64,000 nucleotides of DNA from an uncultured Clostridia bacterium (GTDB lineage: Bacteria > Bacillota > Clostridia > Oscillospirales > Acutalibacteraceae). Below the pieces are notes generated by a model, which saw only the letters and a list, made by a program, of their open reading frames with translations, was not told where the DNA came from and did not search any database. Position 1 is the first letter of the stretch, and each line of letters begins with the position of its first letter. This document shows, piece after piece, positions 49,391 to 59,948 of the stretch. The stretch is from NCBI GenBank assembly GCA_944384995.1, contig CALWVN010000001.1, positions 186,001 to 250,000 on the forward strand, in the 5' to 3' direction. Both the position numbers and the translations under genes were made by a program.

Positions 49391-50101
49391 TTATTCTCCC
49401 AAATAGGCTTTTTGCACGGACGGGTCATGCATCAGATCCGACGCCTTGCCGGAAAGCGTGATGGACCCCGTTTCCAAAACATAGGCACGGTCTGCGATGG
49501 CAAGCGCCTTTTTTGCATTTTGCTCAACCAGCAGAACGGTCGTGCCGCTTTCGCTGATGACACGGATAATGTCAAAAATTTCCGAGACAAGCAGCGGCGA
49601 GAGGCCCATGGAAGGCTCATCCATTAAAATGATGCGCGGATTGCTCATCAAAGCCCTGCCCATGGCAAGCATCTGCTGTTCGCCGCCGGAAAGCGTGCCT
49701 GCGATCTGGTTCTTGCGTTCTTCCAATCGCGGGAAACGAGCATAAACCTTTTCAAGGGATTCGCGGATACCGGCTTTATCCTTTCGTGTATACGCGCCGA
49801 GACGCAGGTTTTCCAGCACGCTCAGCTGTTGAAAAACGCGCCTGCCTTCCGGGACATGTGCCATCCCCATGCCTACGATCTTATGCGCAGGCGTTTTGGT
49901 AAGCTCTTTTCCCTCGAAAACGACACTGCCGCTTTTTGCCGGGATAAGCCCCGTAATGGTGTGCAGGATCGTCGTTTTACCTGCACCGTTTGCGCCGATC
50001 AGGGCAATAACCTCACCTTTCTCAACAGAAAACGAAACGCCTTTTACCGCACGGATAACGCCGTAGCAGACTTCCAGATCTTTGACTTCAAGCATCGCCA
50101 T
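49391..50101 (-). CDS. livF: Branched-chain amino acid ABC transporter ATP-binding protein LivF
   Basis: The 236-residue ATPase has Walker A GANGAGKTT, the signature LSGGEQQML and Walker B RIILMDEPSMGLSP, with the LivF-specific VEKGEVIAL and MAHVPEGRRVFQQLSV segments. With LivG it drives uptake of leucine, isoleucine, valine or related amino acids. GGAGG lies 8 nt before the ATG. It is 14 nt downstream of livG. Confidence 0.95.
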   Translation of the reverse strand: MAMLEVKDLEVCYGVIRAVKGVSFSVEKGEVIALIGANGAGKTTILHTITGLIPAKSGSVVFEGKELTKTPAHKIVGMGMAHVPEGRRVFQQLSVLENLRLGAYTRKDKAGIRESLEKVYARFPRLEERKNQIAGTLSGGEQQMLAMGRALMSNPRIILMDEPSMGLSPLLVSEIFDIIRVISESGTTVLLVEQNAKKALAIADRAYVLETGSITLSGKASDLMHDPSVQKAYLGE

Positions 50102-50115
50102 GCCGTTACCCTCCT

Positions 50116-50874
50116 TTATTCTCCGAGATATGCGGTGATGACTTCCGGATTTTTCAGAACTTCTGCGGTATCGCCGCAGGCGAGCACCTTACCGAAATTC
50201 AGAACCGTCAGTTTTTCACAGATGCCGGAGACCAAATGCATGTCGTGTTCAATCAGTAAGATCGTCATGTGGAATTCATCCCGCACGAATCGAATGGTAT
50301 CCATAAGCTCAGAGGTTTCGTTCGGGTTCATCCCTGCCGCCGGTTCATCCAGCAGCAAAAGCTTTGGATTGGTTGCCAGCGCGCGTGCGATCTCCAGCTT
50401 GCGCTGTTTGCCGTAAGGCAGATTAGAGGAAAGCAATTCGGCATCGTCCTGCAAGCCGAACACAGACAGCAGTTCCATGGCGCGGTCGTCCATTTCCCGC
50501 TCTTTTTTAAAGTAAGACGGCAGCTTGAGCACACCGGAAAGCGTGCTGTATTTGATCTGGTTATGCAGACCGACTTTTACGTTGTCAAGCACAGACATCT
50601 GCCGAAACAGGCGAATGTTCTGAAAGGTTCTTGCGATCCCCATGCGGTTGATCTCAATTTGTTTCTTTCCGACAATGTTTTTACCGTCCAGAAAGATCTT
50701 GCCCTCCGTCGGCTTGTAAACACCGGTGAGCATATTGAATACCGTCGTTTTACCTGCCCCGTTGGGACCGATCAAGCCGTAAAGCTCCCCTGCCTCGATC
50801 TGCATTGAGAAATCGTCCACAGCACGAAGCCCGCCGAACTGGATACCGAGGTTTTTTACTTCCAGCAATGCCAT
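50116..50874 (-). CDS. livG: Branched-chain amino acid ABC transporter ATP-binding protein LivG
   Basis: The 252-residue ATPase has Walker A GPNGAGKTT, the LivG-type signature LPYGKQRKLEIARAL, Walker B LLLLDEPAAGMNP and the C-terminal EHDMHLV switch region. Its start overlaps the livM stop by one base (TGATG), showing coupled translation. Confidence 0.95.
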   Translation of the reverse strand: MALLEVKNLGIQFGGLRAVDDFSMQIEAGELYGLIGPNGAGKTTVFNMLTGVYKPTEGKIFLDGKNIVGKKQIEINRMGIARTFQNIRLFRQMSVLDNVKVGLHNQIKYSTLSGVLKLPSYFKKEREMDDRAMELLSVFGLQDDAELLSSNLPYGKQRKLEIARALATNPKLLLLDEPAAGMNPNETSELMDTIRFVRDEFHMTILLIEHDMHLVSGICEKLTVLNFGKVLACGDTAEVLKNPEVITAYLGE

Positions 50875-51971
50875 CAGGAATTCGCCTCCTTATCCAATCT
50901 ATTGCCCCGCTTTTTGCTCTGCAGCAGGTTCATAATGGAGATCTTCTCTCTGAAAAGATTGATCTTCTCATTGTTATTTGCAAGCATCATCAAAATCAAA
51001 ACAATCGAATAAATCAGCATGCGGTAGCTGTCCATCCCGCGCAGAAGCTCTGGCAACGCGGTCAGAATGATTGCGGCAATAATCGAGCCGCGTGTGCTGC
51101 CGATGCCGCCGAGCACGACGAAGACCAGAATCGTAATGGACATATTATATCCGAAGTTCTTGGTCGTTGCGGTTAAAGAGGACAAATTATGCGCATATAA
51201 AACGCCTGCGATCCCGGCAAAAAACGCGGACACGGTAAATACGATCAGTTTATATTTTGTAACGTTGATCCCAACGCTTTCAGCGGCAATACGGTTGTCA
51301 CGGATGGACATAACCGCGCGCCCGGTGCGGGAATGGATCAAGTTAAGTGAGACAAATACCGTAAGAAGCAGCAAAATAAAGCCAATCAAGAAAGAAGAAT
51401 CCCGCGGCGTACCCGTAATACCGAGTGCACCTTTGATCAGGACTTCACCGTTCTCAGAAAGCCCAAGCGCACTTGTGCTTTCCAAAGAAACATGCAACCC
51501 GTTTTCGTCGATGCCGACATATAAAAGGTTCACAATATTCTTAATGATCTCGCCGAACGCAAGCGTAACGATGGCAAGATAGTCACCTTTTAAGCGCAAT
51601 ACGGGAATACCGATCAAAAGGCCGCAGATCCCGGCGCATATACCGCCGAGCAGCAGTGCGATCAAAAAGCGGAGCCAATCGGGCTGAATCGTCTCTTCAA
51701 AGGTAACGGAGAAAAATGCACTGATATATGCACCGACACACATAAACCCTGCATGCCCTAAAGAAAGATCACCGAGAATACCGACGACAAGATTCAGCGA
51801 GACCGCCATGATGGAATAGGTGCACAACGGCACAAGCAGCCCGGAAAAGAGACTGGACATACTCCCGGTCGCCTGCAAAATCTGCACGATAATAAACATC
51901 GCGGCAAGCATAGCGTAGGTGATCAGGTCGTTTTTGGTCGTTGCTTTCAACGTTCTTTTTTTAGAAGCCAA
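50874..51971 (-). CDS. livM: Branched-chain amino acid ABC transporter permease LivM
   Basis: The 365-residue membrane protein has about nine to ten hydrophobic segments and the LivM motifs LSLGHAGFMCVGAYIS, LRLKGDYLAIVTLAFGEII and VVLGGIGSTRGSIIAAI. It forms the membrane channel with LivH. An N-terminal Lys-rich stretch and a basic C-terminus lie in the cytoplasm. It follows livH by 12 nt. Confidence 0.94.
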   Translation of the reverse strand: MASKKRTLKATTKNDLITYAMLAAMFIIVQILQATGSMSSLFSGLLVPLCTYSIMAVSLNLVVGILGDLSLGHAGFMCVGAYISAFFSVTFEETIQPDWLRFLIALLLGGICAGICGLLIGIPVLRLKGDYLAIVTLAFGEIIKNIVNLLYVGIDENGLHVSLESTSALGLSENGEVLIKGALGITGTPRDSSFLIGFILLLLTVFVSLNLIHSRTGRAVMSIRDNRIAAESVGINVTKYKLIVFTVSAFFAGIAGVLYAHNLSSLTATTKNFGYNMSITILVFVVLGGIGSTRGSIIAAIILTALPELLRGMDSYRMLIYSIVLILMMLANNNEKINLFREKISIMNLLQSKKRGNRLDKEANS

Positions 51972-51983
51972 GACTATCTCACC

Positions 51984-52865
51984 TCACACTTTCTCACTGA
52001 TTTTCTTGCCTAAGAGCCCCGTGGGCTTAATCAGGAGCACTAAAATCAAAACGGCAAATACGATCGCATCGGAAAGCTGGGTGGAAATATAGCCCTTACT
52101 CAGATTCTCGATCACGCCGAGCAAAACACCGCCGAGCATAGCGCCGGGAATGGAACCGATCCCACCGAACACCGCGGCCGTAAATGCCTTGATACCGGGC
52201 ATGGCACCGGTCGTCGGAGAGAGCGCGGGGTATGCGGAGCAAAGCAAAGCGCCTGCTACGGCTGCAAGTGCCGAGCCGATGGCAAAGGTCAGTGTTATGG
52301 TCGCATTGACGTTGATCCCCATAAGCTGCGCGGCGCCGCGATCCTCCGAGACAGCACGCATGGCCCTACCGGGCTTGGTCTTATTGATAAAGAGCGTCAG
52401 TGCAATCATCAACACAATGGAAATCGCAATGGTGGCGATCGTCTCACCGGAAATGTGCAGCGCGCCGTTAAACAGCGTAACAGCGGGCAGCGTGATCACA
52501 GAAGTAAAGCTTTTTGTGTCCGAACCGAAAATCAGCAGTGCAGCATTTTGCAGCAAATAGCTTACGCCGATCGCCGTGATCAAAACCGCCAGCGACGAAG
52601 CATTGCGCAGCGGCTTATAGGCGACTTTTTCGATGATTACACCCAGAACCGTACAAAAAAGAATGGAAGCAAGCACGCTGACAAAGGCCGGCACGCCGGC
52701 TTCTGTCGCCAGAATATATATGATGTACGCACCGATCATAATAACGTCACCGTGTGCAAAATTCAGCATTTTAGCAATGCCGTACACCATGGTATACCCC
52801 AACGCGATCAGCGCATAGATACTGCCAAGGCTGATGCCGGAAACCAAATAGGAAAGAAATTCCAT
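51984..52865 (-). CDS. livH: Branched-chain amino acid ABC transporter permease LivH
   Basis: The 293-residue membrane protein has the LivH hallmarks SLGSIYALIALGYTMVYGI, LNFAHGDVIMIGAYI and AAVFGGIGSIPGAMLGG. The GGGAGG ribosome binding site is 6 nt before the ATG at 52865 and directly touches an earlier ATG at 52871, so the former is chosen. A 51-nt hairpin ends at the first base of this ribosome binding site, between livJ and livH, and probably lowers expression relative to livJ. Confidence 0.94.
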   Translation of the reverse strand: MEFLSYLVSGISLGSIYALIALGYTMVYGIAKMLNFAHGDVIMIGAYIIYILATEAGVPAFVSVLASILFCTVLGVIIEKVAYKPLRNASSLAVLITAIGVSYLLQNAALLIFGSDTKSFTSVITLPAVTLFNGALHISGETIATIAISIVLMIALTLFINKTKPGRAMRAVSEDRGAAQLMGINVNATITLTFAIGSALAAVAGALLCSAYPALSPTTGAMPGIKAFTAAVFGGIGSIPGAMLGGVLLGVIENLSKGYISTQLSDAIVFAVLILVLLIKPTGLLGKKISEKV

Positions 52866-52876
52866 ATCCATCCTCC

Positions 52877-52980
52877 CATATGTGTTTTGAAAAGTTGCAT
52901 CCTGTGCAATTTTTCAAAACACATATGCTTTCTGAAAATTTCAAAGTATGCCGTATGGAGGTTTCTCCATACGGCATACT
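52877..52980 (-). promoter_or_regulatory. Two long hairpins between livJ and livH
   Basis: Hairpin 1 (52945-52980) is a perfect 16-bp inverted repeat around GTTT (left arm core GTATGCCGTATGGAG). Hairpin 2 (52877-52927) has perfect 17-bp outer arms, starting CATATGTGTTTTG, then one G-T position and a further 5-bp stem around a TCCTG loop. Neither is followed by a clear T run, so they are more likely mRNA stabilisers or processing barriers that keep livJ mRNA in excess of the permease mRNA. Hairpin 2 abuts the livH ribosome binding site. Confidence 0.8.
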
Positions 52981-52997
52981 CGAATGAAGATCAAACG

Positions 52998-54173
52998 TTA
53001 CTGAAGAACAGTGTAATCGCCGTTTTCAATACGAACAACGATAGGCGGCTTTGAGGGCTCGCCGTCCGCGCCCCAGGTGATGCCCTGACCGGTCACACCG
53101 GTGTAGGTGATGCTTGTCATTGCGGTCTTCATTGCATCACACATTTCGGAAGCCGTCATGTTCGGTGTAATGCCGGCCTGCTCGGCAGCCTGTTTGATGA
53201 TGTAGATTGCATCATATGCATCCGCAGCAAACTGGTTGAGTGTGGAGGTATCGGAATATTTTGCCGTATAGTTTTTCACAAAGTTCACGGTATGCTCGTC
53301 GGTCGACGAAGGCGTAAACGGAGTCAGAAGCATGACGCCTTCCAGGATGGAGTAATCATAATTCTTGATTCGAAGCAACCCGTCCAGACCGTCGCAGCCG
53401 AACCATTTCACATCAAGCCCTGCCGAATTTGCCTGCTTGATGATCAAAGAAGCTTCTGTGTAATAAATCGGCAGGAAAACAAGCTCCGCACCGGAGGAAC
53501 GGATGGATTGCAGCTGCGCGGAGAAGTCTGTAGCCGTATCTGCGGTGAAGGACTGCTCGGAAACGATGTTAAGCCCCTTCGCAGCAGCTTCCGCGGCAAA
53601 GCGGTCATAAATGCCGGTAGAATAGGCATCGGACGAATCATAAATAACAGCGATCTGCGTTGCGAGGTTGTTCTCCGCAATATAATCCGCCGCCTCAACA
53701 CCCTGCTGCGGGTCAGAGAAGCAAACACGGAACGCATTGTCGCCCTCGATCGCTTCCACGGCTGTTGCGGAAGGCGTCAGAACGAACATATTGTCGGCGG
53801 AAGCAAGCCCCTGGAACGCGATGCATGCGCCGGAGGTGACAGTACCGAGTGAAAGCTGCATACCCCAATCTTTCAGAACATTGTATGCGTTAGCAGCTTT
53901 TTCAGCATCCGCCTCATCGTCTTCCATGCGGAATTCAATTTGAACGCCGTTAATACCGCCGGCAGCGTTGATCTCATCGACTGCAAGCTGCGCACCGTTT
54001 TGGACGCCGATGCCGTACTGCGCATTGTCGCCGGTCAGCGGGCCGCTCAGACCGATCTTAATAGTATCGCCCGTCGAGCCGCCGGAAGCGGCATCATCGG
54101 AACCGCATGCTGCAAAGCACAAAACCACAAGGGCCAGCGCCATGAGCACGGCAAGAACTTTTTTCATTTTCAT
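52998..54173 (-). CDS. livJ: Branched-chain amino acid ABC transporter substrate-binding lipoprotein
   Basis: The 391-residue protein has a lipoprotein signal peptide (MKMKKVLAVLMALALVVLCF, lipobox FAAC, Cys23) followed by a Gly/Ser linker and a periplasmic-binding type I fold (KIGLSGPLTGDNAQYGI, AVDEINAAGGINGV). It captures the amino acid outside the membrane. GGGAGG lies 7 nt before the ATG at 54173. It is the first gene of the operon behind a strong sigma-A promoter, and two hairpins follow it. Exact ligand specificity is not determined by sequence. Confidence 0.94.
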   Translation of the reverse strand: MKMKKVLAVLMALALVVLCFAACGSDDAASGGSTGDTIKIGLSGPLTGDNAQYGIGVQNGAQLAVDEINAAGGINGVQIEFRMEDDEADAEKAANAYNVLKDWGMQLSLGTVTSGACIAFQGLASADNMFVLTPSATAVEAIEGDNAFRVCFSDPQQGVEAADYIAENNLATQIAVIYDSSDAYSTGIYDRFAAEAAAKGLNIVSEQSFTADTATDFSAQLQSIRSSGAELVFLPIYYTEASLIIKQANSAGLDVKWFGCDGLDGLLRIKNYDYSILEGVMLLTPFTPSSTDEHTVNFVKNYTAKYSDTSTLNQFAADAYDAIYIIKQAAEQAGITPNMTASEMCDAMKTAMTSITYTGVTGQGITWGADGEPSKPPIVVRIENGDYTVLQ

Positions 54174-54249
54174 AGAAAAGCCTCCCAATATAGTTTTGCA
54201 GGAAAGAAGATCTGCTCCTGCATATTGGACATAGATTAAGAACGGAAAC

Positions 54250-54379: not shown

Positions 54380-55273
54380 CTATACCACGCCCTGTAGCAA
54401 CAGATCCTCATAGGCGGCATCAAAACCGTCCACAGCACCGTCACCGTTGACATCCATACGAAAATGCATTTCATCCGAAAGCTCCGCGCGCACTGCCGAT
54501 TGTGCAGCGATTAGCTCGTAATCATCAGAATTCACGTTGTTATCCGCGTCCACATCCCCTTTGACCACGATCACAACAGAAAAGTAAACGCGGTTTTTCC
54601 CGCTGCGCACGGTGACGGTCGTTGTGCCCGGAACGTCGGACTGGAACCCGCTGATGGCGTATTCCGACAGCACCTCCTGCGCACCGCCGAAATACGTGGC
54701 TACTACACGCAGACCCTCCGTATTCAGAGTATCCCCGCAAAAATAGAATTTTTGCATCGGTTCGCTTTCAAGCGTGAGTGAGGATTGGGAAATGTCAATG
54801 TAGACCGGGTCAGCGGTAAGCCCGCCGATGGGGTTGTAATTTGCGTCAATAGCTTCGAGAACCTCTAAGGAAATCTCTGCCGTGCCGACCGCGCCCTCCG
54901 CGATTTGGAACACAATTTCGCAAATCGGTTCATCGTTGGTCAGTATATCCTCTGCAACGGTCACAAAAGCAATCGCTACGCTTCCATTCCCCGTGGGTTC
55001 CGCCAAAGCAATACCACCGCAGTCGGAAACCGAACTGCTGTCATATCGCAAAAGCGTATCATCGTAATGCAGCAAAAGCGAAAAGCCGCCGAAATTTCTG
55101 TTTTTTTCCGCGTAAACACGCAGGCGTACGATCCCGCCGTCTTCAACAGCGCCCACAGAAAGGGAAAAACCGTTGTCCGCCGCACCCGAGGGCAAAAGAC
55201 AAGCAAAACACAAAACCAAAATGCAAAGAAAAAATACGGTCAACGCTGTAAAGCCTTTCCGAAAACGTGCCAT
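54380..55273 (-). CDS. Exported protein with cohesin, Ig-like and dockerin domains
   Basis: The 297-residue protein has a signal peptide (about 1-31), a cohesin-like beta sandwich (about 36-165, with NRNFGGFSLLLHYDDTLLRYD), a bacterial Ig-like domain (about 166-238) and a C-terminal dockerin. The dockerin has two calcium loops with ideal spacing, D240-x-D-x-D...N-x-x-D251 and D274-x-N-x-D...D-x-x-D285. Cohesin-dockerin pairs build cellulosomes and other cell-surface complexes. No glycoside hydrolase or scaffoldin gene is nearby. The ATG follows GGAG; it starts 30 nt after the dCMP deaminase gene ends and may be cotranscribed with it. Confidence 0.82.
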   Translation of the reverse strand: MARFRKGFTALTVFFLCILVLCFACLLPSGAADNGFSLSVGAVEDGGIVRLRVYAEKNRNFGGFSLLLHYDDTLLRYDSSSVSDCGGIALAEPTGNGSVAIAFVTVAEDILTNDEPICEIVFQIAEGAVGTAEISLEVLEAIDANYNPIGGLTADPVYIDISQSSLTLESEPMQKFYFCGDTLNTEGLRVVATYFGGAQEVLSEYAISGFQSDVPGTTTVTVRSGKNRVYFSVVIVVKGDVDADNNVNSDDYELIAAQSAVRAELSDEMHFRMDVNGDGAVDGFDAAYEDLLLQGVV

Positions 55274-55303
55274 AATTGTCTCCTAAGCTGCTGAAATATA
55301 AAA

Positions 55304-55792
55304 TCAATACCCTTTTGCACCACTCAAGGATTCGTCATCCTCGATCCATTTCTGCACATTGATGATGCGGTATTCATCTTTGGTATCTCGAATAATTACA
55401 TGCATAATGCCTGCATTGATGACCTGCCGCTTGCACATGGGGCAGCTGCTGGCGCTTGCCACATATTCACCTGAATCGCACTCTTTTCCGACGAGATACA
55501 AGGTGCTTCCGAGCATCTCTTTTCGAGAGGCGCTGATAATCGCATTGGCTTCGGCGTGAACGCTGCGGCATAGCTCATAGCGCTCCCCGCGCGGGACATT
55601 CAGCTGCTGACGCACGCAGTAATTGAGATCGGTACAGTTTTTCCTGCCGCGCGGCGCGCCGTTGTACCCCGTTGAGATCACTTCATCGTTTTGCACGAGC
55701 ACAGCGCCAAAGTGGCGGCGCAAACAGGTGCTCCTCTGGGAAACCATTTCCGCAAGGTCAAGATAGTAATTGATTTTGTCCCGTCTCTCCAT
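55304..55792 (-). CDS. dCMP deaminase family protein (ComEB-like)
   Basis: The 162-residue zinc deaminase has the motif SVHAEANAI (zinc His and catalytic Glu) and the paired cysteines in SSCPMCKRQVI, with TGYNGAPRGRKNC typical of deoxycytidylate deaminases. It converts dCMP to dUMP for dTMP synthesis; in Bacillus the homologue is ComEB. GGGAG lies 8 nt before the ATG at 55792, so the in-frame GTG touching it is rejected. It has its own promoter. Confidence 0.92.
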   Translation of the reverse strand: MERRDKINYYLDLAEMVSQRSTCLRRHFGAVLVQNDEVISTGYNGAPRGRKNCTDLNYCVRQQLNVPRGERYELCRSVHAEANAIISASRKEMLGSTLYLVGKECDSGEYVASASSCPMCKRQVINAGIMHVIIRDTKDEYRIINVQKWIEDDESLSGAKGY

Positions 55793-55821
55793 GCTTTTCA
55801 CTCCCGAAGCTATTTTTTATT

Positions 55822-55850
55822 ATTGTAGCATATCTAAGTCTGCGGCACAA
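55822..55850 (-). promoter_or_regulatory. Sigma-A promoter of the dCMP deaminase gene
   Basis: On the minus strand TTGTGC (55850-55845), a 17-bp spacer and TACAAT (55827-55822), about 30 nt before the ATG. Confidence 0.65.
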
Positions 55851-55862
55851 GCAAAATTTCAC

Positions 55863-55893
55863 AAAAAAAGCGCTCCGGATCAGAGCGCCTTTT
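55863..55893 (-). terminator. Intrinsic terminator after the rpoD pair
   Basis: On the minus strand GCGCTC (55888-55883) pairs with GAGCGC (55875-55870), extended by a G-T pair and four A-T pairs, followed by a run of seven Ts. It begins 6 nt after the second sigma factor gene. Confidence 0.88.
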
Positions 55894-55898
55894 GGAAA

Positions 55899-56996
55899 TC
55901 AATCTAAATAATCTTTTAGCTTTTTACTGCGGCTCGGATGACGCAGCTTGCGCAGCGCCTTTGCTTCGATCTGCCGAATGCGCTCGCGCGTGACACCAAA
56001 CGCGCTACCGACCTCTTCAAGCGTGCGCGGATGCCCGTCCTCTAAGCCGAATCGCAGGGAAAGCACCTTCGCTTCCCGCCGCGTCAGGGTTTTGAGCACC
56101 TCGGAGAGCTGTTCCTTCAAAAGTGTCATGGAAGCTGCATCTGCGGGCGCCAGCGCCTCTTCATCCGGAATAAAATCGCCGAGATGGCTGTCCTCCTCCT
56201 CGCCGATGGGCGTTTGCAGGGAAACAGGCTCCTGCGAAACGCGCAGGATCTCACGCACCTTGTCCACCGGCATGTTCAGCTCCGCCGCGATCTCCTCCGC
56301 CGTCGGGTCGCGCCCGTTTTTATGCAGCAACTGCGTATTCGTCTTTTTGACCTTGTTGATCGTTTCAACCATGTGTACGGGGATGCGGATGGTACGCGCT
56401 TGATCGGCGATGGCACGTGTAATCGCCTGACGGATCCACCACGTTGCGTAGGTCGAGAATTTGAACCCCTTTGTGTAATCGAACTTGTCCACGGCTTTAA
56501 TAAGCCCCAAATTCCCCTCTTGGATCAGATCGAGAAACTGCATGCCGCGCCCGACGTACCGTTTTGCAATGCTTACGACCAAACGAAGATTCGCTTCCGC
56601 AAGACGCTGTTTGGCCTGCTGGTCGTTTTCACTGATGCGCATGGCAAGCTCGATCTCTTCCTCCGGCGTCAGCAGCGGCACGCGCCCGATCTCTTTGAGA
56701 TAGACCTTGACAGGGTCGTCCATGGCGGCTGTACGGCTTTCCGATTCGGCGGCGGCGGCCTCCTGCCCTTTGGGCATCTCACTGTCGAAATTCAGATCAT
56801 CCAGCACCGAATCGCCCATGTCATCCACGATTTCGATATTCTGTGCCTCAATGGTCTCATACAGACGGTCGAGGTCATCCATATCGACGTCCATTTCCAT
56901 AATGACCGCGTCGATTTCCTGTGTCGTCAGTTTGCCGGCTGCTTTCCCTTTCTCTAAAAGCGCCTGCAAAGACGTTTTCTTATCGTTCTTATCCAT
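55899..56996 (-). CDS. rpoD: Housekeeping RNA polymerase sigma factor RpoD/SigA, copy 2
   Basis: A complete 365-residue primary sigma factor: region 1.1 (about 8-60), the 1.2 segment [22 protein letters not shown], region 2 with [20 protein letters not shown] and [13 protein letters not shown], region 3, and region 4.2 with [18 protein letters not shown]. It directs RNA polymerase to TTGACA/TATAAT promoters. It follows a second, near-identical sigma gene by 16 nt, with AAGGAG upstream of its ATG. By hand alignment it differs from that copy at 21 residues plus a 3-residue tail; residues 88-279 are identical. All functional motifs are intact, so it is not a pseudogene. Confidence 0.96.
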
Positions 56997-57012
56997 ATTA
57001 TCTCCTTACACC

Positions 57013-58119
57013 TTATGTAAAATTATCCACATAATCCTTCAGCTTTTTGCTTCGAGTCGGGTGGCGCAGCTTGCGCAGCGCCTTTGCCTCGATCTGCCGG
57101 ATTCGCTCACGTGTGACACCGAATTCACTGCCGACCTCTTCCAGCGTGCGCGGATGCCCATCCTCTAAACCGAACCGCAGGGAAAGCACCTTGGCTTCCC
57201 GATGCGTCAGCGTTTTGAGCACCTCGGAAAGCTGCTCTTTCAACAGCATGCGCGAAGCGGCATCCTCAGGCGCCAGCGCGTCTTCATCCGGAATAAAATC
57301 GCCGAGATGGCTGTCCTCTTCCTCACCGATGGGCGTTTGCAGGGAAACAGGCTCCTGCGAAACGCGCAGGATCTCACGCACCTTGTCCACCGGCATGTTC
57401 AGCTCCGCCGCGATCTCCTCCGCCGTCGGGTCGCGCCCGTTTTTATGCAGCAGCTGCGTATTCGTCTTTTTGACCTTGTTGATCGTTTCAACCATGTGTA
57501 CGGGAATACGGATGGTGCGCGCTTGATCGGCAATGGCACGCGTAATCGCCTGACGGATCCACCACGTTGCGTAGGTCGAGAATTTGAACCCCTTTGTGTA
57601 GTCGAACTTGTCCACGGCTTTAATAAGCCCCAGATTCCCCTCCTGGATCAGGTCGAGAAACTGCATGCCACGCCCGACGTACCGTTTTGCAATGCTTACG
57701 ACCAGTCGAAGGTTCGCTTCCGCGAGACGCTGCTTGGCCTGCTGGTCGTTTTCACTGATGCGCATGGCAAGCTCGATTTCTTCCTCCGGCGTCAGCAGCG
57801 GCACGCGGCCGATCTCTTTGAGATAGACCTTGACAGGGTCGTCCATGGCGGCCGTGCGGTTTTCCGACTCGGCAGCGGCAGCCTCCTGCCCTTTGGGCAT
57901 CTCGCTGTCGAAATTTAGATCGTCCAGCACCGAATCGCCCATGTCATCTACGATTTCGATATTCTGCGCCTCAATGGTCTCGTACAGACGGTCGAGGTCT
58001 TCCATGTCGAAATCCATTTCCAAAATCGCTGCATCGATCTCCTGTGTTGTCAGCTTTCCGGCAGCCTTACCTCTTTCCAAAAGTGCAGTGACAACTGATT
58101 TTTTATTCGTATTGTCCAT
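57013..58119 (-). CDS. rpoD: Housekeeping RNA polymerase sigma factor RpoD/SigA, copy 1
   Basis: A 368-residue primary sigma factor with the same regions as the neighbouring copy. It is the one next to dnaG, the standard place of rpoD in Firmicutes (dnaG-rpoD macromolecular synthesis operon), 34 nt downstream. Its N-terminal 40 residues ([14 protein letters not shown]), the 280-291 linker ([12 protein letters not shown]) and region 4 ([15 protein letters not shown]) differ from copy 2, and it ends DNFT. GAGGAC lies upstream of the ATG. The second copy follows in the same orientation. Confidence 0.96.
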
Positions 58120-58153
58120 ATTCTGTCCTCACACAAAATAATAAGCTCCGAAA

Positions 58154-59920
58154 TCAGTTCGGGCGAAAGAGCTTTAAGAAATCAGCATCGGAAAGCGCCG
58201 CCGGATCTTCAAGCCCGGACTTAGCCTTTTCCTGCGCCAACACGCGGATACAATCCCGGCACTCTTCAGGCGTGTCGGCAAGATTCGGGATGAGCGTCTG
58301 AATCGCGGCGACTGCGCTTTTTTCTTCAGCGGTGAACGAATCCTCCAACATGGAGAGCGAAAAATGCCCATGCTGTGAAATACAGCCCGCAACAGCATCA
58401 AACACGCGTGCATTAAAGGCGGTCACAAAATTTTCAGTCTTTACTTCTTCCTTAATTTGACTGAAAAACTCCGGATTATGCATAAAAGACGCGAGCAGCG
58501 TTTCTTCGGCTTTCGCTGCGCGCAAATGCTTTGCACGTTCGGGATTCACCGTATCCACCGCTTTTTGTGCAGGAGCGGAAAGCTCGCGGATGTCACGCAG
58601 TCGGTTTTGGGTTTTACGCTTCACATTTCCGCTTCGGATCGTCTTTGTCCTTGACAGGATCGCATCTTTAGAGACAGAAGTTTCATCGGCAAGCCGTGCG
58701 GCGTAAATATCGCGCTCCACGGGGCTTGCAACATCGGCAAGCACCTGGCAGGCATCCTCCAAAAAAGAAGCTTTCCCGTCCGACGTGGAAACGTCGTGCG
58801 CAGAACGTGCCTGTAAAATACGGTATTCCACATCGTTTGCCGCATCATTCAACAGCGCACGGAAACGTTCAGGTCCGTGTGTTTTAATGATCTCATCAGG
58901 ATCTTTGCCGCCCTGCATACGGATGACCTTCACATGAATCGTCGTCTTTTCAAACACGGAAAGCGCACGGCGTACCGCCTTTTGACCTGCCTCATCATTG
59001 TCGTAGCAAAGCAGGACTTCCGAAGTGTAGCGGGAAAGCAACGACGCCTGCTGCTCGGTCAGCGCCGTACCCAAGCCCGCAACGGCGTTGTCAAAACCGG
59101 CTTGGTGGAGCGCCACCACATCCATGTTTCCCTCACACAGGATTAGATTTCCGGCTTTGGACTTGCGTGCAAAATTCAGCGCAAACAAGTTTTCACCTTT
59201 CTTATAAATCAACGTATCGCTTGTATTAACGTACTTGCGCGGTGCACCGCTGACAAGCGCACGTCCGCTGAACGCTAAAACGTTGCCGCGCAGATCTATG
59301 ATCGGGAACATGACACGTTCGGAGAAAGCATCATAATAGCTTTTAGAACCGCCGCGCTCACGCATACGCAGCAAATTGGCTTCATACAGTTCACGGTCGG
59401 AAAAGCCCTCGTGGTTTAAATAGCGGCGCAGATTCTCCCACCCGGGGGGCGCAAAGCCAAGCCCGAATTTGCGAATCGTTTTATCCGTTAACCCGCGTTC
59501 GTGAAAATAGGTAAGCCCCGCCTCGCCTGCCGGGGAATACAGGGTGTTGTGAAAATAGCGCGCGGCAAGGCGGTTCGCCTCAAACATCCTGCGCCGCTTT
59601 TCATACAGCCCCGCATCATAACCGCTGTCCTGCGGAACGGCCAACCCGACACGATCCGCAAGCAAACGGACCGCCTCGGTGTAATCTAAATTTTCAATAT
59701 TTTTAATAAAGGTGATCACATCACCGCCGTTGCCGCAGCCGAAACAATAATACGACTGTGTTTCGGGGTAAACGGTGAAGGACGGCGTTTTCTCATTGTG
59801 AAACGGGCAAAGTCCCGTTAAGATTCGCCCGCGACGCTTAAGGGTCACATAAGACGACGCCACGGACTCCATATCTGCGCGCGCGCGAAGCTCCGACAAA
59901 AAGTTCTCTGAAAAAGCCAT
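58154..59920 (-). CDS. dnaG: DNA primase DnaG
   Basis: The 588-residue protein has the N-terminal zinc finger (Cys38, His41, Cys59, Cys62: CPFHNEKTPSF and YYCFGCG), the RNA polymerase core, a TOPRIM domain (LCEGNMDVVALHQAG, LCYDNDEAG) and a C-terminal helicase-binding domain. It makes primers for replication. GAGGTG lies 6 nt before the ATG at 59920 and overlaps an in-frame GTG, which is rejected. It precedes both rpoD copies and follows dgt by 28 nt. Confidence 0.97.
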   Translation of the reverse strand: MAFSENFLSELRARADMESVASSYVTLKRRGRILTGLCPFHNEKTPSFTVYPETQSYYCFGCGNGGDVITFIKNIENLDYTEAVRLLADRVGLAVPQDSGYDAGLYEKRRRMFEANRLAARYFHNTLYSPAGEAGLTYFHERGLTDKTIRKFGLGFAPPGWENLRRYLNHEGFSDRELYEANLLRMRERGGSKSYYDAFSERVMFPIIDLRGNVLAFSGRALVSGAPRKYVNTSDTLIYKKGENLFALNFARKSKAGNLILCEGNMDVVALHQAGFDNAVAGLGTALTEQQASLLSRYTSEVLLCYDNDEAGQKAVRRALSVFEKTTIHVKVIRMQGGKDPDEIIKTHGPERFRALLNDAANDVEYRILQARSAHDVSTSDGKASFLEDACQVLADVASPVERDIYAARLADETSVSKDAILSRTKTIRSGNVKRKTQNRLRDIRELSAPAQKAVDTVNPERAKHLRAAKAEETLLASFMHNPEFFSQIKEEVKTENFVTAFNARVFDAVAGCISQHGHFSLSMLEDSFTAEEKSAVAAIQTLIPNLADTPEECRDCIRVLAQEKAKSGLEDPAALSDADFLKLFRPN

Positions 59921-59948
59921 GGCCGTCACCTCTTTTCAATATCAAAAA

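Follow-up and report, generated by a model that had tools for sequence, protein, structure and literature searches.

Evidence for an old rpoD tandem in Clostridia whose core is converted and whose ends are constrained in two versions

Two complete genes for a primary sigma factor lie head to tail behind dnaG in the genome of an uncultured bacterium of the Clostridia. Their sequences are best explained by a core that the copies share through gene conversion and by ends that persist as two separate conserved lineages, a reading that we hold with a probability of roughly 0.6; the genes would then supply two primary sigma factors alike in the promoter-binding core, with two regulator-contact surfaces. 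The evolutionary part of this account, namely that the tandem pair is old, that its core undergoes conversion and that its ends are constrained in two versions, is well supported, and the functional part is what we infer from it. Bacteria of this kind usually have a single primary sigma factor. The window, meaning the whole stretch of DNA that was analysed, is 64,000 nucleotides long and contains the following features.

55863..55893, minus strand: hairpin with a T-run 3' of dn, likely an intrinsic terminator (fold of 55851-55915, -21.0 kcal/mol)
55899..56996, minus strand: rpoD downstream copy (dn), 365 amino acids, at its ends closest to the single rpoD of G025 and G059 (R306 and A332 in common)
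56157..56726, minus strand: homogenised core of dn, codons 91-280, most of regions 1.2, 2 and 3 (coordinates computed from codon numbers)
56997..57030, minus strand: duplication junction, with VDNFT and stop of up from leader-like DNA (TTTACATA...GTGAAGGAG type); also the ribosome-binding site of dn
57013..58119, minus strand: rpoD upstream copy (up), 368 amino acids, with rare residues E285, R290, H306, T355 and V364 and the tail NFT
57280..57849, minus strand: homogenised core of up, codons 91-280 (coordinates computed from codon numbers)
58120..58153, minus strand: intergenic leader between dnaG and up, without the TACATA motif present in most leaders of the genus
58154..59929, minus strand: upstream neighbour, which from its sequence we take to be dnaG (DNA primase); species-tree marker in the analysis

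Both rpoD frames are complete, and only 16 bp separate them, which bears out the initial annotation of two full primary sigma genes in tandem after dnaG. Against the NCBIfam RpoD equivalog model (cut-off 572 bits) dn scores 578.9 and up 575.5 bits, each over its full length, and all five Pfam matches (regions 1.1, 1.2, 2, 3 and 4) are above cut-off in either protein. Judged by sequence, both copies qualify as RpoD/SigA group 1 sigma factors. A promoter scan between the copies returned six sites against a mean of 4.2 in shuffles, and no promoter is claimed there; the hairpin behind dn is absent from the list of that scan. On the same strand, positions 49391-54188 of the window hold an ABC-transporter-like gene set (two ATPases, two permeases and a binding protein), presumably a branched-chain amino-acid transporter. 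The source genome contains 12 matches to sigma70 region 2, the best two being the rpoD pair. Typing of six of the remaining ten gave three above curated cut-offs (SigK-, SigE- and SigG-type), one ECF-like factor, and two whose best models, SigH- and SigF-type, score below cut-off.

A search of the genus covered 39 genomes and gave an RpoD match at E<=1e-90 in 37. The match is single in 34, including one (G032) that covers residues 1-241 only, and an adjacent pair is found in three: the source genome (G000), G019 and G012. This search returned no match at that threshold for G013 and G060. The three pairs have the same order, the same 16-base spacing and a near-identical junction. A dnaG tree built from 32 genomes of the genus plus three named outgroups unites the carriers in a clade (100/98), and the sister of this clade is G025+G059, with one rpoD copy each. 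A point against the reading preferred here is that the carriers number only three and that G000 and G019 among them are close to each other.

The initial annotation had proposed a search of related genomes, and the recurrence of the pair and its 16-base junction in two further members of the genus makes an assembly accident unlikely. Short reads do struggle with near-identical repeats, and the source genome (1.89 Mb, 86% complete) is in 22 contigs. Yet the same junction and fixed end differences recur across three genomes, within-pair dS reaches 0.64-0.79 at codons 280-363, and the cores of up and dn differ by 20 silent codons in G000 and 12 in G012, so that the repeat was evidently resolved there. 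An assembly or binning artefact, or a recent duplication without conversion, can thus be given hardly any weight. Assembler collapse could sharpen the stretch of G019 in which the copies show no difference (codons 20-282).

Differences between the two copies are distributed very unevenly along the gene. Alignment reproduces the counts given in the initial annotation: 21 of 365 aligned residues differ, none of them in 88-279, and up has three additional C-terminal residues, NFT. At the DNA level 110 of 1095 aligned bases differ, with a single mismatch over the 177 bases of 56205-56381 and 57328-57504, again as annotated; 55001-59000 is free of N. The G000 and G012 orthologues differ over the whole gene by 181 bases (up) and 189 (dn). 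Counted per 30 codons, base differences between up and dn are 28, 10, 9, 2, 6, 4, 5, 1, 2, 15, 9, 16 and 3 in G000; 23, 2, 16, 4, 4, 0, 0, 1, 3, 13, 8, 14 and 2 in G012; and 24, 0 in the next eight bins, then 15, 9, 13 and 3 in G019. The longest run of agreeing polymorphic sites was reached in 0 of 10000 permutations in each pair genome, so the uneven pattern is beyond chance. These counts agree with the clustering of differences previously noted at the N-terminus, the linker and region 4, and the exchanges R/H at 306 and A/E at 332 are confirmed. The core proteins of a genome are identical or one residue apart.

Trees of the separate parts of the gene give two different groupings. For codons 91-279 the copies group by genome (bootstrap 100 for the G012 pair, 91 for the G000 pair), and for codons 280-365 the three up copies stand together (support 77). 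In AU tests of codons 91-279 the by-copy tree is rejected at 1e-52 (10 rows) and 2e-38 (14 rows), and in codons 31-90 at 9e-5 and 5e-4 (two row sets). For codons 1-30, codons 280-365 and both joined, the by-genome tree is rejected in every run (largest p 5e-5). Extreme AU values vary between runs and row sets and mean 'rejected' rather than an exact figure. A tree in which only the G012 copies are paired, with G000 and G019 by copy, is not rejected by codons 280-365 alone (p 0.38 with 10 rows; 0.22 for DNA and 0.09 for protein with 14 rows), and it is rejected by both ends joined (p 0.012 for DNA, 7e-35 for protein). The case for separate C-termini leans also on shared residues and the tail. 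Base sites at which all up copies differ from all dn copies number 12 in codons 1-30, 0 in 31-279 and 14 in 280-365.

Silent sites give the same picture. The synonymous distance along the alignment, which the initial annotation had named as a check, is 0.17 in the core of the G000 pair and 0.79 at codons 280-363, and core dS between the G000 and G012 orthologues is 1.1-1.3. At codons 91-279 paralogues are thus closer than orthologues, silent sites included. Homogenisation does not extend to the whole gene, as codons 1-30 and 280-365 reject the by-genome tree. The proposal of continuing gene conversion is strongly supported by the rejection of the by-copy core tree in both row sets, and the overall pattern is well supported as partial concerted evolution, in which conversion appears to homogenise the sigma2-sigma3 core and region 1.1 and sigma4 stay copy-specific. 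V31, M33 and V37 in the up copy of G019 are dn-type, as after conversion from dn to up. Conversion from up to dn is less sure: the dn copies of G019 and G012 have an up-like D280, yet D280 is common elsewhere.

The boundary between the copies points to a tandem duplication. The intervening DNA is GTGGATAATTTTACATAAGGTGTAAGGAG in G000 and G019 and almost identical in G012. Up ends in VDNFT, and these residues together with the stop codon lie in DNA resembling the rpoD leader of single-copy relatives, as does the ribosome-binding site of dn, so that the junction joins unit end to unit start. The tail of up is best read as a duplication scar, kept in all three genomes. At 21 of 29 single-copy genus loci the rpoD leader contains TACATA a short way ahead of a GTGAAGGAG-like ribosome site, a count made with a rough choice of start over loci L012-L038, L119 and L120 (29 of the 34 single-copy genus genomes); the motif is missing from the leader of up in all three pair genomes. 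TACATA is a possible conserved leader element.

Contrary to one of the two options in the initial annotation, the duplication is not recent. Copy-specific ends are common to three genomes and synonymously divergent, and the synonymous distance between G000 and G012 is about 1 in rpoD. Duplication after the split from G025/G059 is disfavoured when both ends are joined (AU p 0.022 and 0.034 for DNA, 0.018 and 0.019 for protein); with either end alone the same tree gives AU p 0.07-0.18, and the KH and SH tests do not reject it. A duplication that predates this split is favoured, on the AU test only, and it requires loss of up in G025/G059. At residues 33, 37 and 332, dn has the states of G025/G059 and up those of outer relatives, with exceptions at 33 and 37 in the up copy of G019 and the dn copy of G012. 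A collapsed pair in G025/G059 is unlikely; an up-type leader would be expected there, and a dn-type leader is seen. In the rpoD tree the genus pair nests within the genus, which indicates a duplication event of its own and contradicts the idea that every adjacent pair in the order goes back to one ancient paralogue. The other pairs sit on long branches, and one or several events may lie behind them.

The ends appear to be constrained as well as separate. Eleven residues are fixed between the three up and the three dn copies: 3, 4, 5, 10, 285, 290, 291, 306, 332, 355 and 364. By Pfam placement 285 is at the end of region 3, 290 and 291 lie between regions 3 and 4, 306 and 332 are in region 4, and 355, 364 and the tail are past the region 4 match; equivalent positions in SigA chain 7ckq are numbered 6 higher. 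Within a genome, up and dn differ at eight residues of 280-365 in G000 and at seven in G012 and G019. Despite this, the G000 and G012 up copies differ there by 0 amino-acid and 36 silent codon changes, so that the end differences look constrained; the corresponding numbers for dn are 1 and 48. In a survey of 107 distinct single-copy RpoDs from 109 loci, the up states R290 and H306 do not occur, E285 and T355 occur three times each and V364 once, and M291 (13/107) and E332 (84/107) are common. The dn states R306 and A332 are found in 2/107 each. Rare states are thus present in both copies, more of them in up, and up is not simply 'the derived copy'.

These observations bear directly on the idea that the pair serves dosage only, two copies raising the sigma level and the end differences being tolerated drift whose divergence blocks pairing for conversion. 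The 16-base spacing makes one transcript likely, and the near-identity of the core proteins would suit such a role. Gene conversion also weakens toward the ends of any repeat, so the boundary by itself is no proof of selection. What dosage accounts for poorly is that residues 285, 290, 291, 306, 332, 355 and 364 are constant per copy in all three genomes, and that up accumulated only silent changes in 280-365 between G000 and G012. Dosage alone is therefore rather unlikely.

The reading preferred here, a shared converted core with two conserved sets of ends, can be set out in steps, of which the first three are supported by the sequences. (i) rpoD and its leader were duplicated in tandem behind dnaG, the junction creating the VDNFT end of up. 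(ii) Later conversion has held codons 31-279 alike in each genome, most strongly 91-279. (iii) Codons 1-30 and 280-365 have persisted as two separate conserved lineages. (iv) Both proteins are probably working primary sigma factors made from one transcript. (v) Their -10 and -35 reading surfaces would be the same. (vi) The proteins would differ at surfaces that may contact the beta flap, activators or anti-sigma proteins, or affect region 1.1 functions: region 1.1 itself, the linker that joins region 3 to region 4, and region 4 on its outer faces and tail. (vii) One promoter set would run through two holoenzymes responding differently to regulators or growth state. More tentative, at somewhat less than an even chance, is modular concerted evolution in the full sense: conversion would keep the promoter-opening core and selection would hold two region 1.1/region 4 modules, so that in one cell all housekeeping promoters would be served by two differently regulated holoenzymes.

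Divergent promoter preference seems less likely than divergent contacts with regulators or core enzyme, since the residues of region 2 and of the region 4.2 recognition helix (an 18-residue stretch) are identical in up and dn. A changed preference is nevertheless possible: in Rhizobium etli SigA, according to the available part of PMC4943231, region 4 residues without DNA contact altered promoter use. Because region 4 and its C-terminus hold both differences and the new tail, divergence under attack would also fit, one copy resisting a region 4-directed protein of phage or host and the other being sensitive. Phage regulators acting on the contact between region 4 and beta flap are described in the portion of PMC3985653 available. 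This explanation is distinctly improbable. In each of six genera outside this one, the C-terminal tail is altered in at least one copy of an adjacent pair; since divergence there extends over the whole protein, these tails are only suggestive and no special evidence for an antagonist.

Adjacent rpoD pairs are not confined to this genus. Of 295 genomes sampled from the order, 271 have a match, 250 of them a single one at E<=1e-90 and 21, the source genome included, two. The statement that primary sigma factors are normally single copy thus holds for most relatives, and the adjacent pair is not unique to the source genome. The two matches adjoin on the same strand in 17 of the 21 (with a gap of about 0.8 kb in three) and fall on separate contigs in four. 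Among 291 genomes sampled from the class, 277 had a match and ten had two or more, the source genome included, eight of these adjacent. Both surveys scored at most six first-look candidates per genome, so the two-copy counts are lower bounds. Further adjacent pairs occur in families f8, f17, f20, f26, f40, f53 and f55. Like the genus pair, these are two primary-type sigma genes side by side; unlike it, they share only 130-141 of 189 core residues in the 11 measured outside the genus, against 188-189 in the three genus pairs. The 11 come from 16 such order pairs, those left out being G197 (motif filter), G165, G089, G244 and G305. Four genera (f8, two of f17, one of f20) contribute at least two genomes to the tree, and in these the grouping follows copy rather than genome; the two f26 pairs in the tree are represented by one genome each. 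By sequence comparison, the measured pairs outside the genus are old and diverged. Rows of the 41/46-row rpoD tree were filtered by length and the literal motif RIRQ, and the 40-row tree omits the broken G165 copy as well as G019, G025, G267 and G289. The adjacent pair of G165, from a further family of the order, has an upstream paralogue (L138) with one in-frame TAG; this gene may be decaying or contain a sequencing error. Two primary-type sigma genes, G455:C80:7347-8378 and G520:C137:64377-65408, lie within open frames whose lengths, 828 and 831 codons, suggest a long N-terminal extension.

Because conversion would reset the core and leave the ends, the pair allows selection to be followed separately in each region of the gene. 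The parts that a bacterium can keep in two versions seem to be region 1.1 and the outer side of region 4, and the pair would be a natural test of what they do apart from DNA recognition. Use of rpoD as a single-copy marker calls for caution, as it can be paralogous in Clostridia.

With the group 1 RpoD/SigA proteins of Bacillota the pair has in common regions 1.1-4, an equivalog score above cut-off and a place behind dnaG; it differs in that two copies stand in tandem, the upstream one having a new tail and, in the linker and region 4, rare residues. The Streptomyces Hrd proteins, mycobacterial SigB and the cyanobacterial group 2 are examples of extra primary-type sigma factors. Like these, and like RpoS and the cases in Burkholderia and Dokdonia, the present genome has more than one primary-type sigma factor. 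In the accessible parts of the sources, RpoS is an old RpoD duplicate (PMC7527412), two RpoD proteins are given for Burkholderia (PMC13316101) and for Dokdonia (PMC3587595), and a second RpoD-like annotation in Cupriavidus appears among PMC3587595, PMC10165715, PMC7527412, PMC13316101, PMC12322963 and PMC2864759. Those parts describe no tandem pair or conversion for Dokdonia, Burkholderia or RpoS, unlike the adjacent copies with a core kept alike reported here, and a search of open-licence PMC papers found none describing conversion between tandem rpoD copies. For prokaryotes, 26 genes are reported to be under long-lasting concerted evolution (PMC6053082), in a paper whose main text contains neither 'sigma' nor 'rpoD'. 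As far as the available text of that paper goes, the rpoD pair resembles the 26 genes in that paralogues of one genome are more alike than orthologues, at silent sites too, and differs from them in that only the middle of the gene appears to evolve in concert.
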